The notes beneath the pieces were generated by a model. The model did no database searches. It had not been told where the DNA came from and saw nothing but the letters and a program-made list of their open reading frames with translations. DNA of 18,715 nt from Microcaldota archaeon (GTDB lineage: Archaea; Micrarchaeota; Micrarchaeia; Micrarchaeales; Micrarchaeaceae): contig JASHUQ010000078.1 in assembly GCA_030039935.1 (NCBI GenBank), positions 1 through 18,715 of the forward strand, written 5' to 3'. Positions 3,561 through 18,715 of this stretch are shown piece after piece; the first letter of the stretch is position 1, and the number at the start of each line of letters is the position of its first letter. The position numbers and the translations under genes were made by a program.

Positions 3561-3631
3561 GCCAGGATGGCAGATCGGCTATGCGGCCGCCTGCAGAGCG
3601 GCATAGGGGGGTTCAACTCCCTCTCCTGGCT
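3561..3631 (+). tRNA. tRNA-Cys (anticodon GCA)
   Basis: The full cloverleaf can be drawn by hand. Acceptor stem GCCAGGA (3561-3567) pairs with TCCTGGC (3624-3630). The D stem is GCA/TGC with a fourth non-canonical pair. Anticodon stem GCCGC/GCGGC encloses loop CTGCAGA, giving anticodon GCA at 3593-3595. The variable loop is ATAG. The T stem GGGGG/CCCTC has one G-T pair around loop TTCAACT. The discriminator base at 3631 is T (U73), the main identity element for cysteinyl-tRNA synthetase. CCA is not encoded and there is no intron. It carries the left boundary of a small insertion: its 3' 47 bases recur at 4254-4300. Confidence 0.95.
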
Positions 3632-4004: not shown

Positions 4005-4237
4005 AAGAAAAATTAAGATTTATGTTCGATGAGAAAGGAGATATATTAGACATATCTATAGGGAAACCAAAGAAAGCTATTTCGAAACAACTGGAAGACG
4101 ATATACTTGTTAGGATCAGTCCAAAAACAAAGAAAATAATCGGATTTACTATACTTAATTTTAGAAAAAGATTCAAGGAGTCAAAATCAGCTAAAGAGAT
4201 AAACACACCAATCAAAGCAAGCATCAGCTTGGCGTAG
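4001..4237 (+). CDS. DUF2283 family protein, putative antitoxin
   Basis: A 78-aa protein with the DUF2283 layout: an N-terminal strand with F.FDEKGDILDISIG, a middle LEDDILVRISP, then KKIIGFTILNFRKRF. DUF2283 proteins are small beta-rich proteins often coded beside DUF4258 or related nuclease-like genes, and are generally assumed to be their antitoxins. The start ATG overlaps the stop of the preceding gene (ATGA). The C-terminus (ESKSAKEINTPIKASISLA) is longer than the core and may be disordered. The stop lies 16 bp before the duplicated tRNA half, so the gene is the last item in the element. Confidence 0.7.
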   Translation: MKEKLRFMFDEKGDILDISIGKPKKAISKQLEDDILVRISPKTKKIIGFTILNFRKRFKESKSAKEINTPIKASISLA

Positions 4238-4253
4238 TCCACATCTGTTATGA

Positions 4254-4300
4254 GGCCGCCTGCAGAGCGGCGAATAGGGGTTCAACTCCCTCTCCTGGCT
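4254..4300 (+). pseudogene. Displaced 3' half of tRNA-Cys (att-site repeat)
   Basis: This direct copy of bases 3585-3631 contains the whole anticodon arm, T arm and 3' acceptor strand including the T discriminator. No 5' half (GCCAGGA and D arm) precedes it. The variable region is GAAT instead of ATAG, which leaves an A-C mismatch at the base of the T stem (GGGG pairs, the fifth pair is lost). That fits a non-functional displaced half. A working split-tRNA 3' half is unlikely because an intact tRNA-Cys exists 670 bp away. Confidence 0.75.
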
Positions 4301-4301
4301 C

Positions 4302-4779: not shown

Positions 4780-4884
4780 TCAATACTTTATTAACCTTAA
4801 CCTCTAATAAATATTGTCCTGTGAAGACAAGAGTAACTACTGAACTATGATGAAGACCATTTCGGCCGAGGACATTTGGTGCTA
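4780..4884. promoter_or_regulatory. Divergent promoter region: archease (-) and archaeosortase (+)
   Basis: TATA-like boxes face both ways: TTAATAAAGTATT on the minus strand (about 4782-4794) and CTCTAATAAATATTG on the plus strand (about 4802-4816). The plus-strand gene would then have a leader of roughly 45 bases. GGTG at 4878-4881 lies 3 bases before ATG 4885 and favours that start over the TTG and GTG further upstream. Confidence 0.4.
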
Positions 4885-6423
4885 ATGATGGAGGGAAATT
4901 CCAGAAAGCTAATAGGGATTATGTTTATTTTTGCCGGGCTTGCCATCGCAATGGTAAACATAATGCTTATAACGAATTTCTCGATTCTTGACACCAATCC
5001 GACTACATATGTCATTGTCCCAATGCTTATGCTGTTCGCGCTTTTGATTTTCTCTTTAAAGGAAAAACTCGTTTTTTCATACAACAAAAGAAACGTTTTA
5101 TTTGGGCTTGTGCTTTTCATAATTTATATTTTATTAATCTCGTATTTGAGGGGCGCATTGTCGTCAGTTTTTGGCACATATGGGATATACGCACTTATAC
5201 TTCCGGTTTTGATCTCCTCTTTTGTAATCATTTTCTTTGGAATTGATGGTATAAAGAGGCTGAAAACTTTGATTATATACTCACTGTTCTGCTCACCCCT
5301 AATTCTCATGCCCATATTGTACCAGAATTCCGCATTCGCCAATGCAAATGCATATTTTGTTTATGATGTGCTCAAGCTTTTCGGCGCCCCAGTATCAATC
5401 AATGGAATTGTGATAACATCTGCGCTCAACACGAGCATATCAATAGCTACCACTTGCGCCCCGCTTGGCATCTTTGCTGCACTAGTAATGTTTCTTGTTC
5501 CAGTTGCATATTTGTATGAAGGAAAGCTTTCCAGAAAAGCGCTTTGGATATTGTCTGGGATTGTTCTTTTGCTCTTATTCAACCTCATGAGGATGTTCGT
5601 AATATCGCTTTCCTGGGCGTATTATGGGATTGGTCCAGCTGTAACACTGTTCCACATATTTGCCGGTCAGATTCTTTTCTATATAGCAATAATAGCCATG
5701 CTTCTAGTTGGAACAAAATATGGACTGGTTATAAAGAGGATCAAAAAGGGAATGTTTGGTATCATTGCAAAGGACTTTGGGAAAAGAGGAATGAATGGAA
5801 TCGCACTTCAGTCCTTTCTTGTAATAGTGCTTGGGGTTATTGGCTTGCTTTTCACCCTTCCGTATTTGAATATCGTCAATGCATCTCCGACATTTTTCTA
5901 CAATGAGATAAACTCAACAGCATACCTTTACAGTTTGAGAGGTATAGGGAGCGCTCTTTCCTTGGTAAGCAGCAATGTAATATTCATAGGATCCACGTAT
6001 GCTGGTGCTGGATTCGCGTTGGTGAACCAGTCAAACCTTAACAATTCTGTATATGTGATTGCGAATGTGAGTTCTAGTCCGTCACTAGGCAGACTCATAA
6101 CAAATTACACAGATATCTATGATATGCATTCTTACATTCTAAGGAATGGGATAACCCTGCACGGTGCAATAGAAATGTCAGGCAACCTAAGTTTCGATGT
6201 AGATTATTTTGCAATCCCGTATAACGTATCTGGCGGTTTTGTTTCAGTGGATTATGAGGTGTTTAAATTGGAAACACAATATTCACCTTGCAAAATAGGC
6301 TATTCCTCTATCGGCGCTTTCAACTACATAGAATCGATGATATACAACATATTGAATGGAAGGCTCGCATACAGCAACTCCGGATTTATATGCAAGGCTT
6401 ACGAGCTTGCAGAGCCGAGATGA
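4885..6423 (+). CDS. Archaeosortase/exosortase family transpeptidase with extra C-terminal extracytoplasmic domain
   Basis: A polytopic membrane protein of 512 aa from ATG 4885. Residues 1-270 hold about eight hydrophobic helices and the exosortase/archaeosortase catalytic triad in order: Cys191 in TTCAPLG, Arg236 in FNLMRMF and His257 in LFHIFAGQ. These enzymes cut a C-terminal tripartite signal (short motif, TM helix, basic tail) on surface proteins and may attach them to lipid. After one more TM helix near residue 313 there are about 180 residues with several N-X-S/T sequons, predicted outside the cell, which minimal archaeosortases lack. The ATG is chosen because GGTG lies just upstream. 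A Nudix-UDG gene begins 4 bp after the stop. No substrate with a recognisable sorting signal is in the window. Confidence 0.85.
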   Translation: MMEGNSRKLIGIMFIFAGLAIAMVNIMLITNFSILDTNPTTYVIVPMLMLFALLIFSLKEKLVFSYNKRNVLFGLVLFIIYILLISYLRGALSSVFGTYGIYALILPVLISSFVIIFFGIDGIKRLKTLIIYSLFCSPLILMPILYQNSAFANANAYFVYDVLKLFGAPVSINGIVITSALNTSISIATTCAPLGIFAALVMFLVPVAYLYEGKLSRKALWILSGIVLLLLFNLMRMFVISLSWAYYGIGPAVTLFHIFAGQILFYIAIIAMLLVGTKYGLVIKRIKKGMFGIIAKDFGKRGMNGIALQSFLVIVLGVIGLLFTLPYLNIVNASPTFFYNEINSTAYLYSLRGIGSALSLVSSNVIFIGSTYAGAGFALVNQSNLNNSVYVIANVSSSPSLGRLITNYTDIYDMHSYILRNGITLHGAIEMSGNLSFDVDYFAIPYNVSGGFVSVDYEVFKLETQYSPCKIGYSSIGAFNYIESMIYNILNGRLAYSNSGFICKAYELAEPR

Positions 6424-6427
6424 TCCT

Positions 6428-7387
6428 ATGAAGTTCATATATGATGGAGGAATGGTTGTATATACAAACAGGAAATCAAAAAGGATGTTCCTTTTCCTAA
6501 ACAGGAGCGAGGGATGGCTCGACATGCCAAAGGGCCATATAGAAAAAAATGAAACCGCGCTCGATGCTGCTATTAGAGAGACATTCGAGGAATCAGGCCT
6601 TAAAGCCAATCCGGACAAGTTTTTCAAGTATGCTACTGATTACTGGTATAATGAAAACGGCGAAAAGACAAAGAAAACGATTACATTTTTCCTTTCAAAA
6701 GTTCCTGGAAGCTCAAAAGTAAAGGTTTCGTGGGAGCATTCGGGATACGAGTGGCTGGATTTTGGCAATTCGATGAAAAGATTGAAGTTCGATGACCAAA
6801 AGAAACTAATCAAAGCAGCAAATGAGTATATAGACAAAAAAGAGCTTATTGAGAAGCTCAACAATGAATACAAATCGCTTCCATCAAAATACAAGGATTG
6901 GAATCTCAGCAGCAACTTTGTTGCCGGAGAAGGCCCACTCGATGCCAAGGTTATTGTTATAGGCCAGGCTCCAGGCAGAAACGAGGACATAGAGGGAAGG
7001 CCGTTTGTTGGGATAAGCGGAAAGCTTCTTGACAACTTAATAAATAAAAGCGGATTGAAGAGAAGCGAGGTTTATATAACAAGCGTTGTCCAATTCTTCC
7101 CTCCAAAGAATAGGATGCCGAGCGATAGGGAGATCGCGGCCTGCAAGCCTTTTCTGATAAAACAGATAGGCATAATCAGGCCAAAGCTGATAGTCCTTCT
7201 AGGGTCGCTTGCCGCAAAAGAGCTTTGCGGAGAGAAATCAGTCACGAAAACGCACGGATCGATTATAGAGAACGTATACAAGTACTACATAACGCTGCAT
7301 CCAGCAGCCGCTGTTCGAATGAAAAAGAATGTTCCAATAATTGAAGGTGACTTCAGGAAGCTTAGGAGCATACTTTCTGATATATAA
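6428..7387 (+). CDS. Nudix hydrolase fused to family 4-like uracil-DNA glycosylase
   Basis: A 319-aa two-domain protein. Residues 1-135 are Nudix, with a complete box G36..E42..RE..EE.G (GHIEKNE, RETFEESGL) preceded by DMPKGH, as in Ap4A-hydrolase-type members. Residues 160-319 are a UDG: GQAPGRNED (179-187) and GRPFVG (190-195) form motif A, VYITSVV follows, and HPAAA (291-295) is motif B. Family 4 enzymes excise uracil from DNA and carry a 4Fe-4S cluster held by four Cys. Here the N-terminal CxxC and the Cys of VVKCRPP (reading VVQFFPP) are missing, and only Cys239 in AACKPFL remains. The ATG at 6428 is chosen because earlier in-frame codons lie inside the archaeosortase gene. The fusion suggests combined nucleotide and DNA clean-up, which is inferred. 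Confidence 0.85.
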   Translation: MKFIYDGGMVVYTNRKSKRMFLFLNRSEGWLDMPKGHIEKNETALDAAIRETFEESGLKANPDKFFKYATDYWYNENGEKTKKTITFFLSKVPGSSKVKVSWEHSGYEWLDFGNSMKRLKFDDQKKLIKAANEYIDKKELIEKLNNEYKSLPSKYKDWNLSSNFVAGEGPLDAKVIVIGQAPGRNEDIEGRPFVGISGKLLDNLINKSGLKRSEVYITSVVQFFPPKNRMPSDREIAACKPFLIKQIGIIRPKLIVLLGSLAAKELCGEKSVTKTHGSIIENVYKYYITLHPAAAVRMKKNVPIIEGDFRKLRSILSDI

Positions 7388-8740: not shown

Positions 8741-10351
8741 ATGGCAGAGCAAAGAAATGCGGATGAGATATTCAAGGAGTTCAAGGAGCATTCTATTGCA
8801 GAGTTCTTCAAGAAGAACAGGCAGATGTTGGGCTATTCCGGAATGGTGAGGTCGCTTGTAACAGTAGTCCATGAATATGTGACAAACTCTTTTGACGCAA
8901 CCGAAGAGGCGCACATTCTCCCAGACATTGAGGTCGAGATAACCCAGATTGGAGACAGCAAGTACAAGGTAAAAGTCAGCGACAATGGCCCAGGAATCCC
9001 GAAGAAGTTTATTGGAAAGGCCCTGGCAACGATCCTTGCCGGAACAAAGTTCCACAGGTATGTGCAGCAAAGAGGGCAGCAGGGAATAGGTGCTGCGGGG
9101 TGCACCCTCTTTTCTCAGATAACAACAGGAAAGCCCATACTCGCCCAATCTGGAACTGGAAAAGAGAGCTATGCATGCGAACTCTCAATAGATACAATGA
9201 AGAACATCCCGATTGTAAAAAACCTCGTCGACGTAGACCAGAAATTCAAAGGGCTGTCTATTGTGGGAGAATTCGCGGATGTAAAATACGAGAATAGCGA
9301 TCATGGGGTCTATGAATACCTGAAAAGAACCGCGCTGTCAAACCCGCATTCCCAGATAAAGTTCAAGGACCCAGAAGGAAAGGAATATGTCTTTATGAGA
9401 TCTGTAAAGGAAATGCCACAGAAGTCAAGGCCGATCCAGCCGCATCCTCTCGGGCTTTCTGTCAATGACATTCTCGAGTTTGCGCATTCAAGCCAGAGCA
9501 GGAAGATCTCATCATTCCTTGTCGAAACTTTTGCAAGAACCACATCAAACAAGGTATCGGAGCTAAAAGAGATTGCAAAAACAGTCGACTTTGACAAATC
9601 CCCAAAAGAATTGAACTGGACAGAAGCAGAAGAATTGATAAAGGCTATAAGGGCAATCAGGTGGATCGCTCCAGATGCAAGCTCGATAATTCCAATAGGG
9701 GAAAGCAGGATAAAGCTAGCGCTCAAGAACATACTGAACCCAGAGTTCATGAACGTTGTTGAAAGAAAGCCGTGTGTTTTTAGGGGGGGAGTGCCGTTTG
9801 TAGTAGAGGCTGCTGTTGCATACGGGGGAAATTCTGGAAAAAAGGAAGAGAATGGCTATTCCGGGACAATCCTGAGGTTTGCAAACAGGGTTCCTCTTCT
9901 TTTTGATGCGAGCAGCTGCGCGATAAGCAAGTCTATAAATGAGATTGACTGGAAAAGGTACAACATCGACATGGAGACGCAGCCGGTAAGCATTTTCGTA
10001 AATGTTTCCTCTGTTTACATCCCGTATTCTGGGGTTGGAAAGGAGGCGATTTCGCAAGAGACAGAGATAATTGACGAGATAAAGCTTGCGGTGATGGAGG
10101 CGGCGCGGGGAGTCCAGAGATATGTGAGAGGAAAGGAGCAGGTAGCGTTCAATGCAAATAGGTATAAGGCAATAGCCAGATACGTGAAGCAATTGTCAAG
10201 CGACATTGGCGATCTGACTGGCTCTGACAAAAGAGGAATAGAGACAAAGCTTGACAAAATAATAACAAAGCACTTCCCAAAGATGAAAGATGAAAATGAG
10301 GAAAAGTACGAAAATAGTAATGAAGAAGAAAAAGATGAAACTGCAGATTGA
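8741..10351 (+). CDS. top6B: DNA topoisomerase VI subunit B
   Basis: A 536-aa protein, the usual length. The Bergerat/GHKL ATP-binding motifs are intact: HEYVTNSFDA (about 44-53, with catalytic Glu and Asn), DNGPGIP (81-87) and QRGQQGIGAAG (110-120). The H2TH and transducer regions follow, with the conserved switch-lysine-type segment near VERKPCVFRGGVPFVVEAA. It ends in an acidic tail (NEEKYENSNEEEKDETAD). Together with subunit A it forms an A2B2 type IIB topoisomerase that relaxes and decatenates DNA. The expected top6A is not downstream; a hicBA module lies there on the opposite strand, 11 bp away. Confidence 0.95.
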   Translation: MAEQRNADEIFKEFKEHSIAEFFKKNRQMLGYSGMVRSLVTVVHEYVTNSFDATEEAHILPDIEVEITQIGDSKYKVKVSDNGPGIPKKFIGKALATILAGTKFHRYVQQRGQQGIGAAGCTLFSQITTGKPILAQSGTGKESYACELSIDTMKNIPIVKNLVDVDQKFKGLSIVGEFADVKYENSDHGVYEYLKRTALSNPHSQIKFKDPEGKEYVFMRSVKEMPQKSRPIQPHPLGLSVNDILEFAHSSQSRKISSFLVETFARTTSNKVSELKEIAKTVDFDKSPKELNWTEAEELIKAIRAIRWIAPDASSIIPIGESRIKLALKNILNPEFMNVVERKPCVFRGGVPFVVEAAVAYGGNSGKKEENGYSGTILRFANRVPLLFDASSCAISKSINEIDWKRYNIDMETQPVSIFVNVSSVYIPYSGVGKEAISQETEIIDEIKLAVMEAARGVQRYVRGKEQVAFNANRYKAIARYVKQLSSDIGDLTGSDKRGIETKLDKIITKHFPKMKDENEEKYENSNEEEKDETAD

Positions 10352-10362
10352 CAAATTTTTAA

Positions 10363-10587
10363 TTATTTATTTATGAATTTTTCTAACTCATCCCAGCTAG
10401 ATCCTATATCTTCCAATATCCATCCTATTGGTTTCTTCCAAAGTTCCTTGTAATTTAAGACAGTTGCTCTCCTTCCGTCTTGATGAACGAATTTTTCATG
10501 CGAACCTCGCATGCCTGCTGACTGGAATCCTTTGGATAATAGGAAATCTACTATCAATTTTCTTTTTATTGGTCGCATTCTCGACAT
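10363..10587 (-). CDS. hicA: HicA-type mRNA interferase toxin
   Basis: A 74-aa basic protein with the HicA double-stranded-RNA-binding-like fold signature: KLIVDFLLSKGFQSAGMRGSHEKF, with the catalytic His in GSHEKF, then RRATVLNYKELWKKPIGWILEDIG. HicA toxins cut mRNA and tmRNA when not held by HicB. The ATG at 10587 lies 9 bp after the hicB stop; a second Met at codon 4 is possible. The order is antitoxin then toxin, the reverse of the commonest hicAB order. The gene is convergent with top6B. Confidence 0.85.
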   Translation of the reverse strand: MSRMRPIKRKLIVDFLLSKGFQSAGMRGSHEKFVHQDGRRATVLNYKELWKKPIGWILEDIGSSWDELEKFINK

Positions 10588-10596
10588 TGAATCGGC

Positions 10597-10827
10597 TTAC
10601 GCCAAGGCCTCCATTACAGTTGCTTTTGCCTTATTAACGGTAGCCTTGCTATAGTGCTTCTCGTTCTGCAGCACATCAAGAATCATAAGCTTTGCGACAT
10701 CCCTTAAATTCTGCACAAGTTCCTTCATGTTCCTTCCTTGTGTACTTGCGTGTAGTTCTTTTATTCTGCCAGCGTAGCCCAATTTACCTTCCTTCTGAAC
10801 CACAGCGTTAAATCCATATATTTTCAT
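10597..10827 (-). CDS. hicB: HicB-type antitoxin
   Basis: A 76-aa protein of the HicB RNase-H-like fold: MKIYGFNAVVQKEGKLGYAGRIKEL, then ASTQGRNMKELVQNLRDVAKLMI, which corresponds to the usual GC.TqG.t.eEA..n..ea....l. There is no C-terminal ribbon-helix-helix or HTH domain, so if it represses its own operon, binding must come from another surface or partner. The start is probably leaderless or nearly so, because the TATA box lies only about 30 bp upstream and no Shine-Dalgarno is visible. Confidence 0.82.
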   Translation of the reverse strand: MKIYGFNAVVQKEGKLGYAGRIKELHASTQGRNMKELVQNLRDVAKLMILDVLQNEKHYSKATVNKAKATVMEALA

Positions 10828-10913: not shown

Positions 10914-13271
10914 TCACGCCAAAACATCTTCAGGATTGTCAGAATCTACAAGTTTCACTTGTCCGACAGATATGTACATCCTCAATTCCTCTATTTCCTG
11001 CGTTGCCGATCTGTTCATTATGTCCTTGAATTCCTCAAGTTTGTCTGAATTCAGGAATGCTATGTATGTTTTTGAGTCAGGGAAAACAGGAACCCTCTGG
11101 AACTTGCTCGTCCTTGAATATATTACAATGTAGACTCTTTCGTTGTGGAGCGTGGCTATTATGTCTGACTTGTCGCTCGCGTCTATCTCAGTTGTGAATA
11201 CATATGCATGGGTAAGGAAGTATATCCTTAGTTTTTTGAATGTTGCAAGGTACTCTATGTCGTGGCTGCTCTGGGTGACCCACTGCTTTGGCGCATACAG
11301 CCCGTCTGCGCTTACCAGAAAGCCCTTTGAGGTGAGCTGGTTCATAAGGACCTCTATATTGCTGTGTGTTAGATTCACGGGCATGCTGTTGTATCTGATG
11401 TTGTTTGCTATCGCGACCTTCACTTCGTCAACAGAAAGCGGCATGTACTTCCAGTGGTTGTAGATGTTGAGCTTGTCGAACGTTGATACAACTTCGTTAG
11501 CCTTCAGCTTTATTGCTGTCGTATCGGTGCTCTTCATGGGAGGTATGTCTATGTAGAACTCGTCCCTTATAGGAACTCTTACAACAGTTATTAATACAAA
11601 TATTATCACAACCACAACAGCAAGCTCGACATATTGTGTTGGTATGCTGAATGCCTGTGATGCAGGCTTCGCAGTGTAGCTGAATGTGCTTGCGAGCATG
11701 TTTATCGAGAATGTAAGATTGCCCTTTGGGGTCTGCGCACCCTTTGGCAATGCATACACTATTGTTCCGTTGCTTATCGTGCCTGTGCTTTTGTATAGGT
11801 TGTTGACAGTTATATTGTATGGTATATTCGTCAATTGGGTTCCAGATGATGTTATAGAGAATGTGAATATTCCGCTCGTTGAATTTCTGCTTGTGAGTGA
11901 TATTACTATTGGTGATACATTGAACTGCGCAGCCGCGTACTGGCCGTTGTAGAACCCAAGCACTTGTGCGATATACTGCCCTGGAGGAATGTCAAGAGTT
12001 ATAGGCGCCTGTATTGTTATGTTGCCTGTAGAGTTAAAGGACGATAAAGGAATAGTCTGCACCTGCGTAAGGTTTTCATTGTATATTGCTAGGTGCAATG
12101 AATAGCCTTTCTTTTGCGTCGACCTTTGAATTATGCTTATTGTCGGGGTTGGGCTCACTGAGGTTGCTGGCGTTACGCTTTGCGCTATCGACATTGTCCC
12201 GTTTATCGAGAAGTTTACATTATAATCGTGATAGGTGTAGATATCGCTTGAATTGCCTATCGAATATCCGTTATTTGTGTAAACAGTTACTCTTCCATAC
12301 CCAATCTTATTGTTTGATGAAAGATTATCCAATACTGGTATAGATATTGGATCTAAAGCAAATCCGAATTTTCCTGTCTGGTTTATTGCAATCGTGTTTG
12401 AACTTCCATATGTATAGCTTGGAATCCAGAATAGCTGCGATATCGCCTTCGCAACATCATGGCCAGCATCGCTTGCATTCCTCCATTCTGTTATGTAATT
12501 CGGGAATATGAGTATTGAGCCGTTGTATTGGCTTGTGTATGACAGTGCGCCGTATCTCTTTCCAGTGGCAAGATAGTATGTGCTCTTGTTGAAGAAAAAT
12601 CCAGTATTTGCATATGTGGAGTTCTTCTGCAGCCATAAAAGATATGAAGGAATGCTGGATTGCGGAATGCTTACAAGAACATCGCCCTGCGCAACAAAAG
12701 AGAAATTGCCACCAGCATAGACTATGTCTATTCCTTTATTTAACAGGTAATTTATCAGCGTGTCGTTCTTTCCTGTTACATTTGAAAACATTGATGATGG
12801 CATGGCGCTGTCCAGTATTACAAGAACTGAATCCTTTGGCATGCTCTGAACATTCTGCATGTTTATAAGAGACACAGAAGAGTTGCTTGGCACAACGCCG
12901 TAGAGAGCGAGATCGTTTTCCACGCTGTTTATTATGCTCCCTAGATTCTGGCAATAGCTTGGGCAGTTGTCGCTCACATTAAGTATGTAGAAGTTTTTCG
13001 GGGGAGGCTGCTGGAAGATCGTCGCGTTGGCGTATATTGAAGAGATGTTGTTTATGTTATATGAAAAAAGCACATATGGCTTGATCTCGCTGCCGAAATC
13101 GTATGACAAAAGGTTTGTAGACTCTAGGGATGTGCTCAGGCCTGAGTGCAGAACCGATCCTGATGTCTTTGTGGGGGATGCGCTTCTAAGGCTCAATCCC
13201 GCATATGAGACTAGTATTACCACTGCTATGAATACAATTATAAATGCAATATACATCTTTTTAACTCGCAT
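10914..13271 (-). CDS. Large bitopic surface protein with cytosolic winged-helix-like tail
   Basis: A 785-aa protein. Residues 1-30 are a basic stretch plus a hydrophobic helix (signal anchor). Residues 31-545 are Ser/Thr/Asn/Tyr-rich with more than 20 N-X-S/T sequons and one CPSYC pair, so they lie outside the cell and are probably glycosylated. A second TM helix at about 547-566 leads to a 219-residue cytosolic region; its first part (SVDEVKVAIANNI ... NIEVLMNQLTSKGFLVSADGLY) looks like a winged helix. Between residues 130 and 330 strands such as DSVLVILDSAM and GIDIVYAGGNF suggest a Rossmann-like fold. I do not recognise the family. It is the last gene of the minus-strand locus, 11 bp after the 52-aa gene, and could be a cell-surface adhesin or sensor for the machine upstream. 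Confidence 0.75.
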   Translation of the reverse strand: MRVKKMYIAFIIVFIAVVILVSYAGLSLRSASPTKTSGSVLHSGLSTSLESTNLLSYDFGSEIKPYVLFSYNINNISSIYANATIFQQPPPKNFYILNVSDNCPSYCQNLGSIINSVENDLALYGVVPSNSSVSLINMQNVQSMPKDSVLVILDSAMPSSMFSNVTGKNDTLINYLLNKGIDIVYAGGNFSFVAQGDVLVSIPQSSIPSYLLWLQKNSTYANTGFFFNKSTYYLATGKRYGALSYTSQYNGSILIFPNYITEWRNASDAGHDVAKAISQLFWIPSYTYGSSNTIAINQTGKFGFALDPISIPVLDNLSSNNKIGYGRVTVYTNNGYSIGNSSDIYTYHDYNVNFSINGTMSIAQSVTPATSVSPTPTISIIQRSTQKKGYSLHLAIYNENLTQVQTIPLSSFNSTGNITIQAPITLDIPPGQYIAQVLGFYNGQYAAAQFNVSPIVISLTSRNSTSGIFTFSITSSGTQLTNIPYNITVNNLYKSTGTISNGTIVYALPKGAQTPKGNLTFSINMLASTFSYTAKPASQAFSIPTQYVELAVVVVIIFVLITVVRVPIRDEFYIDIPPMKSTDTTAIKLKANEVVSTFDKLNIYNHWKYMPLSVDEVKVAIANNIRYNSMPVNLTHSNIEVLMNQLTSKGFLVSADGLYAPKQWVTQSSHDIEYLATFKKLRIYFLTHAYVFTTEIDASDKSDIIATLHNERVYIVIYSRTSKFQRVPVFPDSKTYIAFLNSDKLEEFKDIMNRSATQEIEELRMYISVGQVKLVDSDNPEDVLA

Positions 13272-13282
13272 TGAAACACTGG

Positions 13283-13441
13283 CTATGCTGTTGCCTTTGC
13301 CTGGTTCTCCTCCTCTCCCTTCTTTCCGAACATCTTGATGAACATGTTTGTGATAAAGTTGTTCTTCTCCCCTACTCTTTTCACTATGTTGTAGGTTTTT
13401 AGATATCTTACCCTTTTATTTATAGTTACAGCGTATTTCAT
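13283..13441 (-). CDS. Small basic 52-aa protein between two locus genes
   Basis: Translation from ATG 13441 gives a lysine-rich peptide beginning MKYAVTINKRVRYLKTYN, with an amphipathic middle (NNFITNMFIKMFGKK) and ending ENQAKATA before TAG. It fills the gap exactly: one base separates its ATG from the upstream stop and 11 bp follow before the surface-protein gene. That spacing is the main evidence that it is real. No family is recognised; the basic amphipathic segment could lie along the membrane or bind a partner. Confidence 0.6.
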   Translation of the reverse strand: MKYAVTINKRVRYLKTYNIVKRVGEKNNFITNMFIKMFGKKGEEENQAKATA

Positions 13442-13442
13442 G

Positions 13443-14180
13443 TTACCCCTTCGCTTCTATGTATCCTAGAGACACCATCTTGTTGAGTATCTGCTCTATT
13501 CTTGGGCTTGGAACTTTGTGCACCTTGCAAAATTCATTTATGTCTATCGTGTTGTCGTGCGTTTCTATCCAGTCCTGCACCATCACCATCAGAGATTCAT
13601 CGGAATACGCTTCCAGTGTTTTCAACCTGTCAGATAATTCCTTGTTTTCCGTAGACAGCTGCATTCCTTGAACAGTAAGATTTTTGTTCGACGCTGTAAG
13701 CTCTATGTTGAGCCTTTTTATTTCTCTATATTCATTGAAAAGAGAGTCATAGTTGTTGAACAGTGCGCTGTAGCTCTGCGATATTGAATTTACAACATCG
13801 TCTATCGCGGAATCGACATGCTGGAAAAGCTCTGTGTTGTCCGGCTCGTACAAATCAGTTATGAGGGAAAGCGTGCTAAGCAGGTTCTTCACGATATACA
13901 GGCGCCGCATCTTTACACTGGAATCATGTGCAATAGAATACTGCACATTGATGTTGTCCCTTTCAAGCGTTATTATGAAGAAAAGGAAAGGCCTTTTTTG
14001 TATGTCGCGGCTCTCTATCCTTAGTATTGTTGTGCTGTCTGATGCGGCCCTTATGTAGAAAAGCTCAAGCGAGGAGAGCCTCTTTGCTATGTCTGAAAAT
14101 GTTCCGATGGTATTGCTCTTTATGTTGATTTCCTCCACATCTGGCTCTATGAACCCGATCTTTTCCTGACTCTCTGCCAA
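13443..14180 (-). CDS. Coiled-coil protein with C-terminal winged-helix-like domain
   Basis: A 245-aa soluble protein. Residues 1-110 form an alpha/beta domain (LELFYIRAAS, TILRIESRDI, PFLFFIITLERDNINVQYSI), 115-195 are helical with heptad character (FNEYREIKRLNIELTASNKNL, STENKELSDRLKTLEAY), and 198-245 look like a winged helix (LMVMVQDWIETHDNTIDINEFCKVHKVPSPRIEQILNKM, then SLGYIEAKG; quoted here as two runs around one domain). The start is TTG, supported by GGTG two bases upstream; no ATG is near. A TATA-like box lies at the right distance, so this gene may begin a second transcript in the locus. I do not recognise the family; it could be a regulator or a cytosolic scaffold. Confidence 0.7.
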   Translation of the reverse strand: MAESQEKIGFIEPDVEEINIKSNTIGTFSDIAKRLSSLELFYIRAASDSTTILRIESRDIQKRPFLFFIITLERDNINVQYSIAHDSSVKMRRLYIVKNLLSTLSLITDLYEPDNTELFQHVDSAIDDVVNSISQSYSALFNNYDSLFNEYREIKRLNIELTASNKNLTVQGMQLSTENKELSDRLKTLEAYSDESLMVMVQDWIETHDNTIDINEFCKVHKVPSPRIEQILNKMVSLGYIEAKG

Positions 14181-14205
14181 AACACCACAGTAATCATTAT
14201 GAACC

Positions 14206-14228
14206 AGTATTTTAATACTTTTAGTATT
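14206..14228 (-). promoter_or_regulatory. Internal promoter with three alternating hexamers
   Basis: AGTATT-TT-AATACT-TTT-AGTATT forms two overlapping inverted repeats in the 54-bp gap before the coiled-coil gene. On the minus strand it contains TATTAAAATAC, TATA-like, centred about 30 bp before the TTG start, so transcription would begin only a few bases before the GGTG Shine-Dalgarno. Confidence 0.45.
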
Positions 14229-14234
14229 GCTCCT

Positions 14235-14624
14235 CTATCTGGATTTTCGCGATCCTTGGGAGGGTTTTTCGCTGACTGGCACAGCAAGCAGCGGTACATA
14301 TGAAACCAAGGAAAGTATATACATGAACACTATTATTATGAATCCAAAAAGGAATGCTGAGGGCATTTCCCTTGATGCCAGTATTATGAATATGGCGAAA
14401 AGGAACCCTATGATCAGGTATGCAACCTGCTTTCTCTCAAAGCTCTTCCTTGCCTTGTAATATTTCGGGAAGCATTCCTTGCATACTACTGCTCTATTTG
14501 GATTCTTTGCCCTTACTGTATGGGAGTTTATCCACCTTATCGCCTTGACAACATTGTCAACCTTTATGTCAAGCCCGTTCTTTTCCTGTGCGCATATTAT
14601 GCATTTTGGATTCTTCTTTTCCAT
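14235..14624 (-). CDS. Zinc-ribbon protein with two C-terminal membrane helices
   Basis: A 129-aa protein. CIIC (residues 8-11) and CKEC (48-51) form a four-Cys zinc site around an IRWINSHTVRAKNPNRAVV core. Two hydrophobic helices follow at about 67-84 and 90-115, with a basic Ser-rich tail, so the ribbon faces the cytosol and the protein is membrane-anchored. Similar Cys-rich two-TM proteins are, to my recollection, common hypothetical proteins in DPANN genomes, but I cannot name a function. The ATG follows the upstream stop by 7 bp with GTGAG just before it. Confidence 0.7.
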   Translation of the reverse strand: MEKKNPKCIICAQEKNGLDIKVDNVVKAIRWINSHTVRAKNPNRAVVCKECFPKYYKARKSFERKQVAYLIIGFLFAIFIILASREMPSAFLFGFIIIVFMYILSLVSYVPLLAVPVSEKPSQGSRKSR

Positions 14625-14631
14625 TGTCTCA

Positions 14632-14940
14632 CTAATCGAATTCTATGCTAGCAGTATACAGCTTTCCTGTCTCGGCTGCTATCTTGCTCTCATCTGTCAT
14701 GTTCAGTATCTCGCTTATAAGAATGTCGTCCATGTTGAGCCTTCTGAACACATTGGCTATCCTTTCCCTCGACAATCCCGTCTTTTCTAGTAGTGTTGTG
14801 AACTGTATCACATTTATATGCCTGTGCTCCTTCTCCATGCTGCTGAAAAGAGCGGCTATGCTCTTCTCTGTAAGCCCGTAGGCTATGAGTATCTTCCTAA
14901 GTTCCAGCCTGCTTACCGTGAATGTGTTAGGATTTGGCAT
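14632..14940 (-). CDS. Small helical protein homologous to the C-terminal domain of the adjacent ATPase
   Basis: A 102-aa all-helical protein from ATG 14940, with GGTGGAG directly before it; GTG at 14949 is an alternative. Residues 13-80 (ELRKILIAYGLTEKSIAALF onward to ISEIL) align without gaps over 68 positions to the last part of the ATPase coded just upstream (EIRNKFIEYNMNVENINDIF onward to ITRII). About 16 residues are identical and the hydrophobic spacing is the same throughout. It therefore looks like a stand-alone copy of that domain. The gene overlaps the ATPase stop by 14 bp, so translation is coupled. It could compete with, cap or complement the ATPase tail. Outside this resemblance I recognise no family. 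Confidence 0.7.
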   Translation of the reverse strand: MPNPNTFTVSRLELRKILIAYGLTEKSIAALFSSMEKEHRHINVIQFTTLLEKTGLSRERIANVFRRLNMDDILISEILNMTDESKIAAETGKLYTASIEFD

Positions 14941-16447
14941 CTCCACCACTATATGATATTATCCTTGTTATTATTTGATCCTCAATGCTAAGGCTCTTAA
15001 GGAATGCTACAATGCTCGGGTTTACAACTCCATTTGATTTCAATATTCTTATGAAATCGAGTATTTTCATGGCCCTTCCGCTGGAATCGAACGATGCGAA
15101 TATGTCGTTTATGTTTTCAACGTTCATGTTGTATTCTATGAACTTGTTCCTTATTTCATCTCTTTCCAGCTGGTACTCTTTCTGAATTATTCCAGCAGAG
15201 ATCTCGCTCTGTGTGAGTACATCTGTCAGGTCAAGCGAGTAGACAAACAATGGTCCTTCTCCGTGTATCTTTTCAAGCACAAATGTACTTGGAAAGCTTA
15301 TGCTTGTCTGGAATGTCATGTGCACTGCCGCTTGTCCTACCCCGAATTTGTTTATGTCCTCTTTTACGAAATCCGAGAACTTCAAAGACCTCTGTATGTA
15401 TTCGACGTAGTTCTCGTCCTTTAGCCTGAAAACGAATGTAGTTCCCATAAGCGAGAATATTGTCTCGCTCACATCCAATGGGCTTTGCGATGCGACTATA
15501 AGCCCATACTGGTATTTTCTTCCTTCTCTTGCGAATGTTATTGCGTCGCTTCTTTCATCTGAGGCAACCTTCCAGGCCTCGTCAAGAACGACTATTGCCT
15601 TGAGCCCTTTTGACTCGCTCCATCCTTCCGATCTCATTTTCTCCTTGAGTGTCTGCAATATGAAAAGCGCTGCTAGGGCCCTGAACTTCTCGTCAGGAAG
15701 TCCAGACAGGTCGATGTCAACAAGGCCCGATTCAGCAAGCTTTCCTAAATCGAGGGAGCTTTTCCTTGCAAAGTAGTCTTCTCCTTCCCTTGCGAACTGC
15801 CTTAACCTGTGTATCGAGCTCTCCAGCTCTGCTGGATATTCATAGGTTCCCTCCTGCAGCTTCTCCTCAAGCAATGATATTACATTCTTAAGCGTAGGCA
15901 CCTCTTTTCCCAAAGGGGGATTTTCATACAGTACAAATCCCTCATTCACATATGCCTGCTCCAATGCATCCTGTGTCAGGCTTTGCTGCAGTGTGTATGT
16001 TCCTATATCTGTGAGTATGTCCAATGAGGTTATTATCTGCTTTACCCTATCAAGCGGCTTCATCCCGGCAAGGTCCATTATGTTTAGATAGTCGCCCTTT
16101 GCAAGCGATATCACCTTTCCCCTTGTCTGCTCGACCCATGACTTGTATTCTCCTGCAAAGTCTATGATTATCGCATTAGAGTTCCATACATAATTAGCCC
16201 TTCTCAAAAGCGTCTTTACAAGGAAGCTCTTTCCCGACCCTGTTATTCCAAAAACTCCTATGTGCGGGTTTGCAAGGTTCAGGAATGACCAGCTGAATGG
16301 AATCTTGAATATGCTTGTAGTTCCAATATATATCGCTTGGAATGGATCGTTCATAAGCGCGCTTGCCGGAGGCTCGGGAGGCCTTGATAGGAACGACCTC
16401 TTGCCTATTTCATAGCTCATTATATTTTGAAGTTTTAGCAGCGTCAT
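14927..16447 (-). CDS. VirB4/HerA-type P-loop ATPase (DUF87-like), motor of the locus
   Basis: A 506-aa protein from ATG 16447, chosen because the stretch upstream overlaps the previous gene and GAGGGATGA lies just before it. HIGVFGITGSGKSFLVKTLL holds the Walker A motif (about 67-74), IVVLDEAW the Walker B (285-292), VASQSP (318-323) the polar sensor of VirB4/HerA ATPases, and FRLKDEN a candidate arginine-finger region. These are hexameric motors that drive type IV secretion, conjugation or DNA processing. The large N-terminal domain of VirB4/TraC proteins is missing: only about 60 residues precede Walker A. Two membrane proteins coded directly upstream may supply it. Residues 431-498 form a small helical domain repeated in the next gene. 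No nurA is nearby, which argues against the HerA-NurA repair pair. Confidence 0.85.
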   Translation of the reverse strand: MTLLKLQNIMSYEIGKRSFLSRPPEPPASALMNDPFQAIYIGTTSIFKIPFSWSFLNLANPHIGVFGITGSGKSFLVKTLLRRANYVWNSNAIIIDFAGEYKSWVEQTRGKVISLAKGDYLNIMDLAGMKPLDRVKQIITSLDILTDIGTYTLQQSLTQDALEQAYVNEGFVLYENPPLGKEVPTLKNVISLLEEKLQEGTYEYPAELESSIHRLRQFAREGEDYFARKSSLDLGKLAESGLVDIDLSGLPDEKFRALAALFILQTLKEKMRSEGWSESKGLKAIVVLDEAWKVASDERSDAITFAREGRKYQYGLIVASQSPLDVSETIFSLMGTTFVFRLKDENYVEYIQRSLKFSDFVKEDINKFGVGQAAVHMTFQTSISFPSTFVLEKIHGEGPLFVYSLDLTDVLTQSEISAGIIQKEYQLERDEIRNKFIEYNMNVENINDIFASFDSSGRAMKILDFIRILKSNGVVNPSIVAFLKSLSIEDQIITRIISYSGGDAKS

Positions 16448-16451
16448 ATTC

Positions 16452-17285
16452 TCATCCCTCTTTGCTGAACTGCGAGACAAGCTCGTTTACTGTTGTAGGC
16501 ATTGAGAAGTTGAACATAAAAAGGGTGTACAACTCCCTTCCTATTACTCTGTTCAATTGAACATCTAGAGAACTGAAAGCAACCTGCAGCTCCTTTATCT
16601 GCGAAGCAAGGTTGTCTATCGCAGACTTTTCGCTTATGCCTACTGCTGTTGTCTCTATGTACATCAAAGATGATATTGGCTTCTCCCCAGATGATATCCT
16701 GTCTATCCTTGCCTGTATTACATTTATCTTCCTCCTTATATCTGTCACGGCTATTTCTGACTGCTTCTGGCTCTGCATCTCCCTGTTTAGCTGGAATTCC
16801 TGAAGACCCCTCTTTGCCTCAAGCTCGTCCCTTACTTTCTGCACATCGCTCGCAACGCTCATGAGATGGAACTTGAAAGGGAAGCTCAATGTCATCACAG
16901 CTCTTTCCCATTTCTGCGGAGCCTCGACAAGCTTCTCTTCCTGCGATTCATCCTGCTGCTCTTCCTTGAATATGTATGGGAAAAGGTTGGCGGTCACGAA
17001 CCCCGTGGCGTAGTACAATCCCGACACATTCTTCAATATCGAATCCTGCTTTTTCGTTATAATGTAATCCTTTGCAGGCTGGAATGTTATGCCAAACGTT
17101 TTTGTGAAAAGGGGGAAAACAAGGAAATCCGCCCAGTTTATTATGAGAATAAAGGCAACAGCTATGAGGGAAAGCAGTGCTGCAATCGCAGACCATGGGC
17201 TCCCGAACGTTTGAAGCGTTCCGAATGCTATGAATATCACGATGAGCGACAATATAAGATAGAACACCTCCTCTTCATCCATCAT
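16452..17285 (-). CDS. Two-TM membrane protein, VirB4 N-terminal-domain-like (second copy)
   Basis: A 277-aa protein. Two hydrophobic helices (about 7-26 and 30-58) are followed by a cytosolic region. ILKNVSGLYYATGFV resembles the first strands of VirB4/TraC N-terminal domains; a long helical part (VQKVRDELEAKRGLQEFQ) follows, then SSLMYIETTAVGISEKSAID. The layout mirrors that of the protein coded just upstream (TM-TM, KTGYTATVYINI, helices, LSTYATLSATGIKEYEAI), so the two look like paralogues. The start has a perfect GAGGTGAT Shine-Dalgarno followed by ATGATG; the second ATG (17282) has better spacing. The first ATG overlaps the preceding stop by 4 nt. It ends 4 bp before the ATPase start. 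The VirB4 resemblance is by pattern and needs a profile search. Confidence 0.65.
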   Translation of the reverse strand: MMDEEEVFYLILSLIVIFIAFGTLQTFGSPWSAIAALLSLIAVAFILIINWADFLVFPLFTKTFGITFQPAKDYIITKKQDSILKNVSGLYYATGFVTANLFPYIFKEEQQDESQEEKLVEAPQKWERAVMTLSFPFKFHLMSVASDVQKVRDELEAKRGLQEFQLNREMQSQKQSEIAVTDIRRKINVIQARIDRISSGEKPISSLMYIETTAVGISEKSAIDNLASQIKELQVAFSSLDVQLNRVIGRELYTLFMFNFSMPTTVNELVSQFSKEG

Positions 17286-18124
17286 ATCACCTCTTCCTCT
17301 ACCTTCTCAGTCATCTCCTGTGAAATCGTCGAGAATGGAATTAGGTATTCCGGCTCGACAAACCTCAGCATATCCTTTCCTGTGATTATGCTTGGCGTGA
17401 CTCCCAAAACAGATCCGATTCCTGACATCGCCTCCCTTGCCTTTTGCTGTGCAACCGCTATAGCCTCGTATTCCTTGATTCCTGTTGCAGATAATGTTGC
17501 ATATGTTGAAAGCTCGAGGGATGATATCTTGCTTACGCTCTCCAATACATTCCTCCACATTGAAAGCTTACCCTTTACAATCTCAAGGGAGTTTTGATCC
17601 GCATCCTTTTGCATAAGCTCCGCCTCCTCGTTCTCCGCAGCGCTTATCGCATCCCTTATTGACTGTATATACGAGTCTTTGTTCATCATGTACATCTGTG
17701 TTGTGAAGCGTATAGGCTCTCTGCTTATTCCAGCAAGGCGGCTGACCTGCCTCGAGAACTCTAGCCTCTCCTCGTCTGTCATGTCTGTTGCAGACTTGTA
17801 CAAAGGAATGTTGATATAGACTGTAGCTGTGTATCCGGTCTTGTCCTTCTTTATTATAGCGTCCTCTGTCGCAGAAAGCCAGTACGGCTGCTCGTTGCTC
17901 AGCACAACGTTCTTTCCCCTTTGCTGCAGCATAGGAATTATAAGATATGAATAGTACCTTGAAGAAAACGCCATGACATCGAACACAAGGGACACTATTA
18001 GAAGCACGATTTTCAGGTATCCTGGAAGAACAGACAATGGAATTGTGACAGCTACAAGAAGAAATACAAGAGACACAGCAAGGAAACCAAGCATGACAAG
18101 CAGTTTTGCATTCATATTTTCCAC
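17282..18124 (-). CDS. Two-TM membrane protein, VirB4 N-terminal-domain-like (first copy)
   Basis: A 280-aa protein with two hydrophobic helices in residues 8-58 (as in PrgI-like subunits of Gram-positive and archaeal conjugation systems), then a cytosolic domain. Strands at TGYTATVYINIPLYK, a segment FSRQVSRLAGI...PIRFTTQMYM, a helical hairpin rich in Glu/Ala, and LSTYATLSATGIKEYEAIAVA are arranged like the N-terminal, non-ATPase part of VirB4. The start is GTG 18124 or ATG 18115 (GAGTGG just upstream of the latter). The stop overlaps the next start by 4 nt. A 45-bp gap with a TATA-like AGATTAAAATAC separates it from the upstream polytopic gene. The function as a membrane anchor for the ATPase is inferred. 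Confidence 0.65.
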   Translation of the reverse strand: MENMNAKLLVMLGFLAVSLVFLLVAVTIPLSVLPGYLKIVLLIVSLVFDVMAFSSRYYSYLIIPMLQQRGKNVVLSNEQPYWLSATEDAIIKKDKTGYTATVYINIPLYKSATDMTDEERLEFSRQVSRLAGISREPIRFTTQMYMMNKDSYIQSIRDAISAAENEEAELMQKDADQNSLEIVKGKLSMWRNVLESVSKISSLELSTYATLSATGIKEYEAIAVAQQKAREAMSGIGSVLGVTPSIITGKDMLRFVEPEYLIPFSTISQEMTEKVEEEVI

Positions 18125-18169
18125 TCTTTGCTATCTGATTGCTCTGGGAATGTATTTTAATCTTATTAT

Positions 18170-18715
18170 CTAGACGAAACTCCTCATCCTTCCTATTCCA
18201 TAGGCGAATCCTCCTATGAACTGCGCCGCCTCGTTTATGAATGCGTATGTTACAGCTATTATTAGAATTGGATAGAAAAGTATGAGCAGCCAGAAGGATG
18301 ACAATCCCGATTGCACGTTTGACAAAGCTAGAGCCAGGGGGCTATCTGCGCTCAGCGCATTGCTCTGCGATCCTGTTCCTGTACCCCACCTGTTCAGCTG
18401 CGCGTATGATGAAGAAAGGCTTGACAGTATTTGAGGAGAGGTGAAATAGTAGGCAATTCCAAATAGGATTGGCATTACAAGATAGAAGGCTATCCCTATT
18501 GCAAGCATGACCCCTCCGAGAGCCCTTGTCGGGAGTATGGCCCTGAACACTATTCCTGGAACAATGAAAACTGGAATTGCGGCAATAGTGAAGAAAACAA
18601 GAAGATAGTACTGTGCGTATATTGCGGCAATACCATCAATTATGAATGTCCCTACTATGTTTGCCGGCTGTATGAAAAATGTTTCCAATGGCAGCTGGTA
18701 TGCGGTTTGGCCAAG
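18170..18715 (-). CDS. Polytopic membrane protein, VirB6/CedA-like by context (5' truncated at window end)
   Basis: The frame stays open to the last base, so the N-terminus lies beyond the window; about 181 residues are visible. Hydrophobic helices occur around LLVFFTIAAIPVFIVPGIVF, the long GGVMLAIGIAFYLVMPILFGIAYYF, and FWLLILFYPILIIAVTYAFI, with a Gly/Ser/Asn-rich linker between. The segment VFRAILPTRALGGVMLAIGIA resembles a motif I associate with polytopic proteins near archaeal VirB4-like ATPases. With a VirB4-type motor coded three genes downstream, a channel role such as VirB6 or CedA is the best guess. It remains a guess without a profile search. Confidence 0.55.
   Translation of the reverse strand, partial: LGQTAYQLPLETFFIQPANIVGTFIIDGIAAIYAQYYLLVFFTIAAIPVFIVPGIVFRAILPTRALGGVMLAIGIAFYLVMPILFGIAYYFTSPQILSSLSSSYAQLNRWGTGTGSQSNALSADSPLALALSNVQSGLSSFWLLILFYPILIIAVTYAFINEAAQFIGGFAYGIGRMRSFV

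Follow-up and report, generated by a model that had tools for sequence, protein, structure and literature searches.

Related systems and the locus

Several machines related to type IV secretion provide points of comparison for a gene run on JASHUQ010000078.1, a contig from a Micrarchaeota genome. The Ced system of Sulfolobales (CedA, A1, A2, B, D and E) is, like the locus described here, a chromosomal archaeal derivative with a pilin, a VirB6-like and a VirB4-like protein, and the VirB4 N-terminal domain is divided there between CedB and CedD (PMC11868833). The Ted system of Thermoproteales (TedA, B and C) has its pilin, VirB6-like and VirB4-like genes in one region, with one TedA and with HerA, Rad50 and ParA genes reported near by (PMC9905601). 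Among bacterial systems, the Trw/VirB machine of R388 has a homopentameric VirB6 (PMC9259494), and the rvh system of Rickettsiales, which are obligate symbionts with reduced genomes, has a multiplied VirB6, with five in Rickettsia (PMC2653234). Type IV secretion of the MPF-FATA kind is widespread in the reduced, host-dependent Patescibacteria, where VirB4 occurs in 2,417 of 3,035 assemblies (PMC12102498). In addition, a giant surface protein of nanohaloarchaea, which belong to the DPANN archaea, links a large ectodomain to a VirB4/TraG-like ATPase (PMC10266531).

The gene run is quite probably the motor half of a type IV secretion-like machine that Micrarchaeota carry on the chromosome and inherit vertically. 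It appears to belong to a new type IV secretion variant that has Ced/Ted-like parts, a VirB4 as if split into adaptor and motor, VirB6 as a conserved group of six, and its own accessory genes. A search of the open PMC literature, preprints being outside its scope, found no description of this system in Micrarchaeota. A first-pass annotation of the same DNA had proposed a membrane-spanning transfer machine with a distinct subunit set in a DPANN archaeon, of which the proposal is supported and the DPANN origin confirmed, with DNA as a conjectural cargo.

The window, meaning the whole stretch of DNA that was analyzed, is the complete 18715-base contig (G000:C93) of a 712-kb genome in 118 contigs. 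Eight compact genes, here called g8 to g1 in reading order, occupy its minus strand from the contig end down to position 10914 in the list of open reading frames (ORFs). They include a polytopic membrane protein (g8), two proteins with two transmembrane (TM) helices each (g7 and g6), an ATPase (g5) and a very large surface protein (g1). The first-pass annotation had counted nine genes, one too many, as the three remaining minus-strand ORFs of at least 60 amino acids (aa) are nested inside g1, g6 and g7. Apart from points on g4 and g3 taken up below, its description of these genes otherwise held, including the tight packing and overlaps across 10914-18715 and the run of the locus past the window, where g8 is cut by the contig end. 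A gap of 45 bp separates g8 from g7, and g7 and g6 overlap by 4 bp. With a TTG start, g5 overlaps g6 by 29 bp, and a 4-bp gap results if the ATG at 16447 is the true start, close to which the proteins of relatives begin in the ortholog alignment. The g5 and g4 genes overlap by 23 bp, followed by gaps of 7 bp (g4-g3), 54 bp (g3-g2) and 171 bp (g2-g1). Pfam and NCBIfam scans gave no model over its cut-off for g1 to g4 or g6 to g8.

Each known system resembles this locus in part. In contrast to Ced, the regions resembling the VirB4 N-terminal domain lie here on ATPase-free 2-TM proteins, six VirB6-like paralogs are found, g1 to g4 are extra, g5 scores far under the CedB and CedD cut-offs, and NurA was not found in 21 genomes. 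Ted, with its single TedA, comes closest to a smaller operon described below. R388 offers possible counterparts for g7 (the VirB4 N-terminal region), the pilins (TrwL) and the VirB6-like proteins (a TrwI chain), whereas a VirB6 homopentamer is found there, a PF03432 relaxase was not found and a PF02534 coupling protein hardly ever found here, and VirB5, 8, 9, 10 and 11 were not identified here. The rvh system is bacterial, has five rather than six VirB6 proteins and differs in its gene set. The system of Patescibacteria is likewise bacterial, no VirB3-VirB4 fusion was found in it, and the available part of its report mentions no six-gene VirB6 array (PMC12102498). In nanohaloarchaea, the ectodomain and ATPase form one chain and a second, adjoining ATPase has the VirB4 N-terminal domain, again with no VirB6 array mentioned in the accessible text (PMC10266531). 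One further genome (G060:C6, about 8785-8976, L193) holds a 3271-aa frame with a VirB4/coupling-protein-like ATPase stretch that is reminiscent of this nanohaloarchaeal protein.

Conservation and gene order

The distribution of g5 supports the conclusion that the locus is core, chromosomal and vertically inherited in Micrarchaeota. The gene is present in 57 of 60 relatives, including all 38 that are at least 90% complete, and in 167 of 196 genomes of the class Micrarchaeia (84 of the 91 that are at least 90% complete), some of the 167 matching weakly (down to E 1e-21) and perhaps holding a paralog. Identity to g5 among the matches listed is 68-77% in the genus and 47-55% elsewhere in the class. 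In the ATPase tree, the two best-sampled families (f1 and f2) each form one clade. In one ATPase alignment, the row of the window lacks its first codon. Among the best 80 relatives from named genomes, the assigned name is Candidatus Micrarchaeota or one of its subgroups, apart from some Marsarchaeota and one plain archaeon, and the complete genomes represented include those of Candidatus Micrarchaeum sp. A_DKE and ARM-1. No relative was found in viral contigs.

Gene-order conservation, a check that had been proposed at the outset, extends across the class Micrarchaeia loci surveyed. All 20 class loci retain the order g5-(g4)-g3-g2-g1, and g6 adjoins the ATPase gene in 19 of them (the exception is L049). 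In the loci from named genomes, g4 follows the ATPase gene in 78 of 80, and g4-g3-g2-g1 follow in this order in 59 of the 60 that have room for them (the exception is L101). On the other side, the g7-g6 pair precedes the ATPase gene in 73 of 76 named loci with enough sequence, and 52 of 56 such loci have five or more VirB6-like genes upstream. These two sets overlap, as some contigs are the same (for example, L063 and L043), and their counts are not independent. Because the order is fixed in relatives, the gene run is not a product of chance. In one locus (L053), extra ORFs of 368 aa (between g8 and g7) and 308 aa (between g3 and g2) stand within an otherwise kept order.

The ATPase and VirB6-like genes also occur together. 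Matches to VirB6-like genes were obtained in all 16 ATPase-positive genomes chosen from the 167 (7-14 each), and such genes were missing from 15 of 16 ATPase-negative genomes, the exception being a genome of 73% completeness (G106; Fisher p 5.7e-8, not corrected for relatedness). The negatives were those listed outside the order among 29 ATPase-negative genomes, and three of them have a weak partial match to the ATPase profile (E 1e-12 to 1e-13). In 15 of the 16 positives the VirB6-like count is 7-8 or 12-14, which corresponds to about one or two arrays plus one single gene, with fragments blurring the counts.

A six-gene VirB6-like array and its pilins

In relatives, g8 is the last member of an array of polytopic paralogs, with five further paralogs upstream. 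Ahead of the array, many relatives encode a protein of about 243 aa with six TM helices (6-TM), and some encode a small protein resembling a pilin. In this genome, the last 335 bp of contig C47 match the g8 end of the window at 98.8%. That contig carries two further array members upstream of g8, and a pilin gene and the 6-TM gene stand together at the end of contig C117.

Exactly six VirB6-like genes are present in 22 of 22 complete arrays retrieved. This count takes in every array retrieved complete (11 from each of two sets, in 18 genomes, with L055 a repeat of L177 and counted once) and excludes contig C47, which is cut, along with three VirB6-like genes that occur singly. The third member of L054 (975 aa), missed by the first clustering, was added by hand, and a profile places it in the same contig, L118. 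Arrays were located via VirB6-like clusters, so that loci without clusters could not enter the count. The VirB6-like tree sorts by array position (10 changes in the 22 arrays, against a minimum of 5 and a shuffled mean of 85.7), and the clade of position 6, the place of g8, has a support of 99. It is striking that six positional, pore-type paralogs are kept in a fixed order where one gene is usual.

The VirB6 identity of the array is a weaker assignment that draws on fold and genomic context rather than on sequence. A model of one member, with a predicted local distance difference test (pLDDT) value of 87, can be aligned with 244 of the 261 residues in a chain of the R388 stalk. We read this chain as TrwI/VirB6 from the length and place of the gene at 6127-7155, whose record states only 'type IV secretion system protein'. 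The N-terminus of the VirB6-like proteins aligns with the pilins (74.6%), a feature also reported for CedA/CedA1 and VirB6/VirB2 (PMC9905601). The family had no Pfam match, 0 matches among PDB sequences and a negative result for its profile against single R388 sequences. One alignment of the family took in 79 of 220 full-length rows. In distant families, VirB6-like arrays adjoin genes for large proteins of 856-1640 aa (some cut) with a lipoprotein-like start (L169:2227-6519, L171:12673-17592, L173:17332-19899 and L174:13373-17491).

Judged by family models, VirB2/TrbC-like pilins are encoded at the wider locus. The window itself has no such gene; 9 of the 20 class loci have one close to the array or next to g6. 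Among 11 homologs, seven match T4SS_pilin and six match TrbC/VirB2, both at E<=0.1, the best TrbC value being E 7e-6 (PF04956). A PDB sequence search with the pilin placed TrwL, the R388 VirB2 pilin, first of 11, a weak match at E 0.014, and hhalign comparisons of pilin and TrwL gave 64% and 57%.

A VirB4 possibly divided between adaptor and motor

The proteins encoded by g6 and g7 are one family, which had no Pfam match. Its comparison with PDB sequences gave 27 matches (best E 0.05), none from type IV secretion, and the g7 profile was negative against single R388 sequences. The g7 alignment combined the g7 of the window, 65 of 73 full-length g7 rows and 28 of at least 120 search matches. For the one 2-TM protein that was modelled, of the g7 type, the first 13 Foldseek matches are R388 type IV secretion chains, and the model aligns to the VirB4 N-terminal region. 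The suggested check of the membrane genes against VirB4 and VirB6 folds leaned toward a link, with the polytopic protein giving the weaker match. In ARM-1, no g6 or g7 gene lies beside the main ATPase gene (stretches L166, L167, L180 and L119).

The motor itself matches PF01935 (4e-17), PF12846 (8e-14), PF19044 and PF10412 over their cut-offs, the last being a coupling-protein DNA-binding family (27.6 bits, cut-off 20.5), so that an ATPase of this superfamily might conceivably act in coupling. The ATPase is of the DUF87/VirB4 type, in line with the VirB4/HerA-type ATPase of the first reading of the locus. It contains a P-loop (GITGSGKS) and a Walker B-like motif (VVLDEAWK). Since the Pfam match of the ATPase domain begins at residue 65, g5 has no room for a VirB4 N-terminal domain. 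It is as if VirB4 had been split into a membrane adaptor, represented by the 2-TM proteins, and a separate motor.

Assigning g5 more narrowly is difficult. The NCBIfam ranking is led by CedD (67.2 bits), followed by a VirB4-like conjugation ATPase (54.3) and HerA (52.1), all far under their cut-offs. The curated CedD and CedB cut-offs are 600 and 700 bits, with CedB scoring 49.6, and the CedD cut-off was exceeded in 0 of 4 genomes. A PDB sequence search instead places HerA-type proteins (best 47 bits) ahead of VirB4 (31.6). As the two rankings disagree, sequence alone does not settle between VirB4 and HerA. The VirB4-type membership of g5 holds at the superfamily level only, HerA being equally close.

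A smaller operon with the same parts

A smaller operon provides the best evidence that these parts form one machine, and it also supports their identities. In eight of 18 mapped loci (L167, L207, L208, L209, L210, L212, L213 and L214), a pilin gene is followed directly by single VirB6-like, g6/g7-like and ATPase genes. The other ten carry parts of the set, some being cut by contig ends or dispersed. One set of stretches had been picked because a second ATPase or VirB6-like match had already been seen there. A g2 gene follows in six of the eight operons, preceded in L210 by a copy resembling g4. Additional genes typical of the large operon are present in L210 and L214. The former, with a pilin, a VirB6-like, a 2-TM and an ATPase gene, a copy of the ATPase C-terminal part, g2 and a g1-like gene, is intermediate between the two types. 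Among five pilins of smaller operons, one lies exactly at the PF04956 (TrbC) cut-off of 27.9 bits, and the other four reach at most E 0.2 for T4SS_pilin. Where these loci were read further, housekeeping-like genes come next. The ARM-1 genome has these elements scattered, with the array of six at about 343-350 kb, the smaller operon at about 382-385 kb, the operon of the main ATPase at 427 kb and another pilin gene at 677 kb.

Accessory genes

The four genes after g5 are accessory genes that are extra in comparison with Ced. The first-pass annotation had taken g2 and g4 as two winged-helix-like modules; both are small and cytosolic, but a free-standing copy of the ATPase's C-terminal domain is a better description of g4 than a winged helix. 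It matches g5 residues 436-510 at E 6e-4 and distant g5 orthologs at E values down to 2e-12, and a match to the ATPase C-terminal part directly follows the ATPase gene in six genomes of other families. For g2, the winged-helix-like Pfam evidence is weak and below cut-off. A zinc-ribbon membrane protein had been proposed for g3. The CxxC pairs and two TM helices are present, but among 14 aligned sequences one cysteine is invariant and one nearly so, the others being less well kept. The g1 protein has an ectodomain of about 500 aa between its N-terminal and second hydrophobic segments, followed by a C-terminal domain of about 200 aa that is probably cytosolic.

Possible function and alternative explanations

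The machine might work in the following way. The g5 protein, itself without the VirB4 N-terminal domain, would form a ring motor at the cytosolic face. The N-terminal part of VirB4 would sit on the separate 2-TM proteins g6 and g7, which could anchor the motor under the pore. The pore would be made of the VirB6-like proteins, six paralogs in fixed order with g8 as the sixth, most simply as one hetero-oligomer. On it, VirB2/TrbC-like pilins, whose genes lie close to the array or at other sites of the genome, would polymerise into a conduit. The g1 protein would display its large ectodomain for contact, and g2, g3 and g4 might serve as assembly or motor accessories. Such a machine would carry macromolecules through the membrane during contact with a second cell, which is most likely the host.

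Micrarchaeota are thought to depend on hosts (PMC8975820), and a core chromosomal machine of this type in such archaea suggests exchange with the host. As to its cargo, uptake of nucleic acid falls a little short of probable, export of effectors to the host is possible on a more tentative footing, and any other cargo is unlikely. The near-absence of a separate coupling protein leans toward uptake, and the parallels in Patescibacteria and Rickettsiales lean toward export.

The best-surviving alternative, which we regard as plausible without favoring it, is a DNA importer of the Ced/Ted kind, powered by g5 and bringing in DNA from kin or host for repair or as a source of nucleotides. CedD is the top-scoring NCBIfam model for g5, and CedB and CedD likewise hold separate parts of the VirB4 N-terminal domain (PMC11868833). 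Chromosomal pilin, VirB6-like and VirB4-like genes also fit an importer, as does the scarcity of transfer genes. A PF03432 relaxase was found in 0 of 17 genomes, in a search that covered PF03432 only and had a thin control (1 of 14 genomes positive). The PF02534 coupling protein gave no match in 16 of 17 genomes and one in G060 (22.8 bits, cut-off 20.1), inside the 3271-aa ORF mentioned above. Against an importer, no competence or repair gene was recognized in the operon by Pfam, and NurA (PF09376) was found in 0 of 21 genomes of the order, with a control positive in 7 of 14 known genomes. NurA is part of the proposed generator of single-stranded DNA in Ced/Ted donors (PMC9905601), so that donation by kin in that manner is unlikely.

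A somewhat doubtful alternative is that effectors are exported to the host, along the lines of type IV secretion in Patescibacteria and Rickettsiales. A core machine in a lineage thought to be host-dependent (PMC8975820) would suit this role, as would the large surface protein g1 in the operon and the parallel with the five VirB6 proteins of Rickettsia (PMC2653234). Also in its favor, one patescibacterium needs its type IV secretion cluster, but not the coupling protein, to grow as an epibiont (PMC12102498). The occurrence of a PF02534 coupling protein in just one of 17 genomes speaks against export, and no effector candidate was seen, no search aimed at such genes having been made.

Two further readings have largely been rejected. 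HerA carries an N-terminal barrel, for which a g5 domain beginning at residue 65 leaves no room. It is very improbable that g5 is a HerA-type ATPase for DNA repair or chromosome segregation with unrelated membrane neighbors, even though HerA models give it scores close to those of CedD and VirB4 and, among PDB chains, those of HerA score higher. The proposed comparison with HerA is neutral by sequence, but NurA was not found in any of the 21 genomes of the order, so that g5 is not the HerA of a HerA-NurA pair. Moreover, operons of two kinds keep its gene together with those for 2-TM proteins, VirB6-like proteins and pilins, and the gene is absent jointly with VirB6-like genes. The remnant of an integrated conjugative element, suggested by the likeness to conjugation machinery, is hardly credible given the core distribution, the fixed order, the lack of PF03432 in 17 genomes and of relatives in viral contigs, and the two families that each form one clade.

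A type IV secretion-like machine whose motor half lies in the window, as preferred here, would be a good candidate for how small dependent archaea exchange material with other cells. For the exchange of molecules between DPANN archaea and their hosts, a core machine of Micrarchaeota brings a concrete, testable candidate in complete genomes such as ARM-1 and A_DKE. If true, a VirB4 split into adaptor and motor would extend the reports on CedB and CedD. The R388 pore, a homopentamer, lies over a hexameric motor, and exactly six ordered VirB6-like paralogs therefore bear on how VirB6 pores are built. One speculative possibility is that the six proteins make up a single asymmetric, hetero-hexameric pore in which each occurs once at a fixed place, in six-fold register with a hexameric VirB4-type motor and unlike the R388 homopentamer. 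On a motor with VirB4 split into membrane adaptors and a bare ATPase, such a pore would serve Micrarchaeota as a dedicated conduit for taking material from their archaeal hosts or passing it to them.

Features of the window

Table 1. Positions and proposed identities of features in the 18715-base window
Feature	Position	Strand	Description
g8	18170..18715	-	Last 181 aa of a VirB6-like polytopic protein, the sixth and final one of the six-gene array; 5' end cut by contig end
g7	17282..18124	-	Two N-terminal TM helices (VirB3-like arrangement) and a cytosolic domain with a fold like part of the VirB4 N-terminal region
g6	16452..17285	-	Paralog of g7, with two predicted TM helices and a related cytosolic domain
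g5	14927..16480	-	VirB4/HerA-superfamily ATPase; likely true start ATG at 16447
g4	14632..14949	-	Stand-alone copy of the g5 C-terminal domain
g3	14235..14624	-	Small; has CxxC pairs and is predicted to span the membrane twice; in 20/20 class loci
g2	13443..14180	-	Cytosolic; long polar helical middle, winged-helix-like C-terminal end
g1	10914..13271	-	785-aa surface protein with large ectodomain; in 20/20 class loci
HicA-like and HicB-sized ORFs	10363-10587 and 10597-10827	-	HicA-toxin-like ORF (PF07927 4e-5, below cut-off) beside a HicB-sized ORF without Pfam match
NUDIX ORF	6356-7387	+	Single ORF with fused NUDIX and uracil-DNA glycosylase superfamily domains
Exosortase-type protein	4876-6423	+	Transmembrane protein (PF09721 2.6e-19)
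tRNA-Cys(GCA), two	3561-3631 and 4227-4301	+	Predicted

The HicA-like and HicB-sized ORFs might be a toxin-antitoxin pair just downstream of g1. The exosortase-type protein is possibly an archaeosortase that could anchor surface proteins. The two predicted tRNA genes lie about 600 bases apart.

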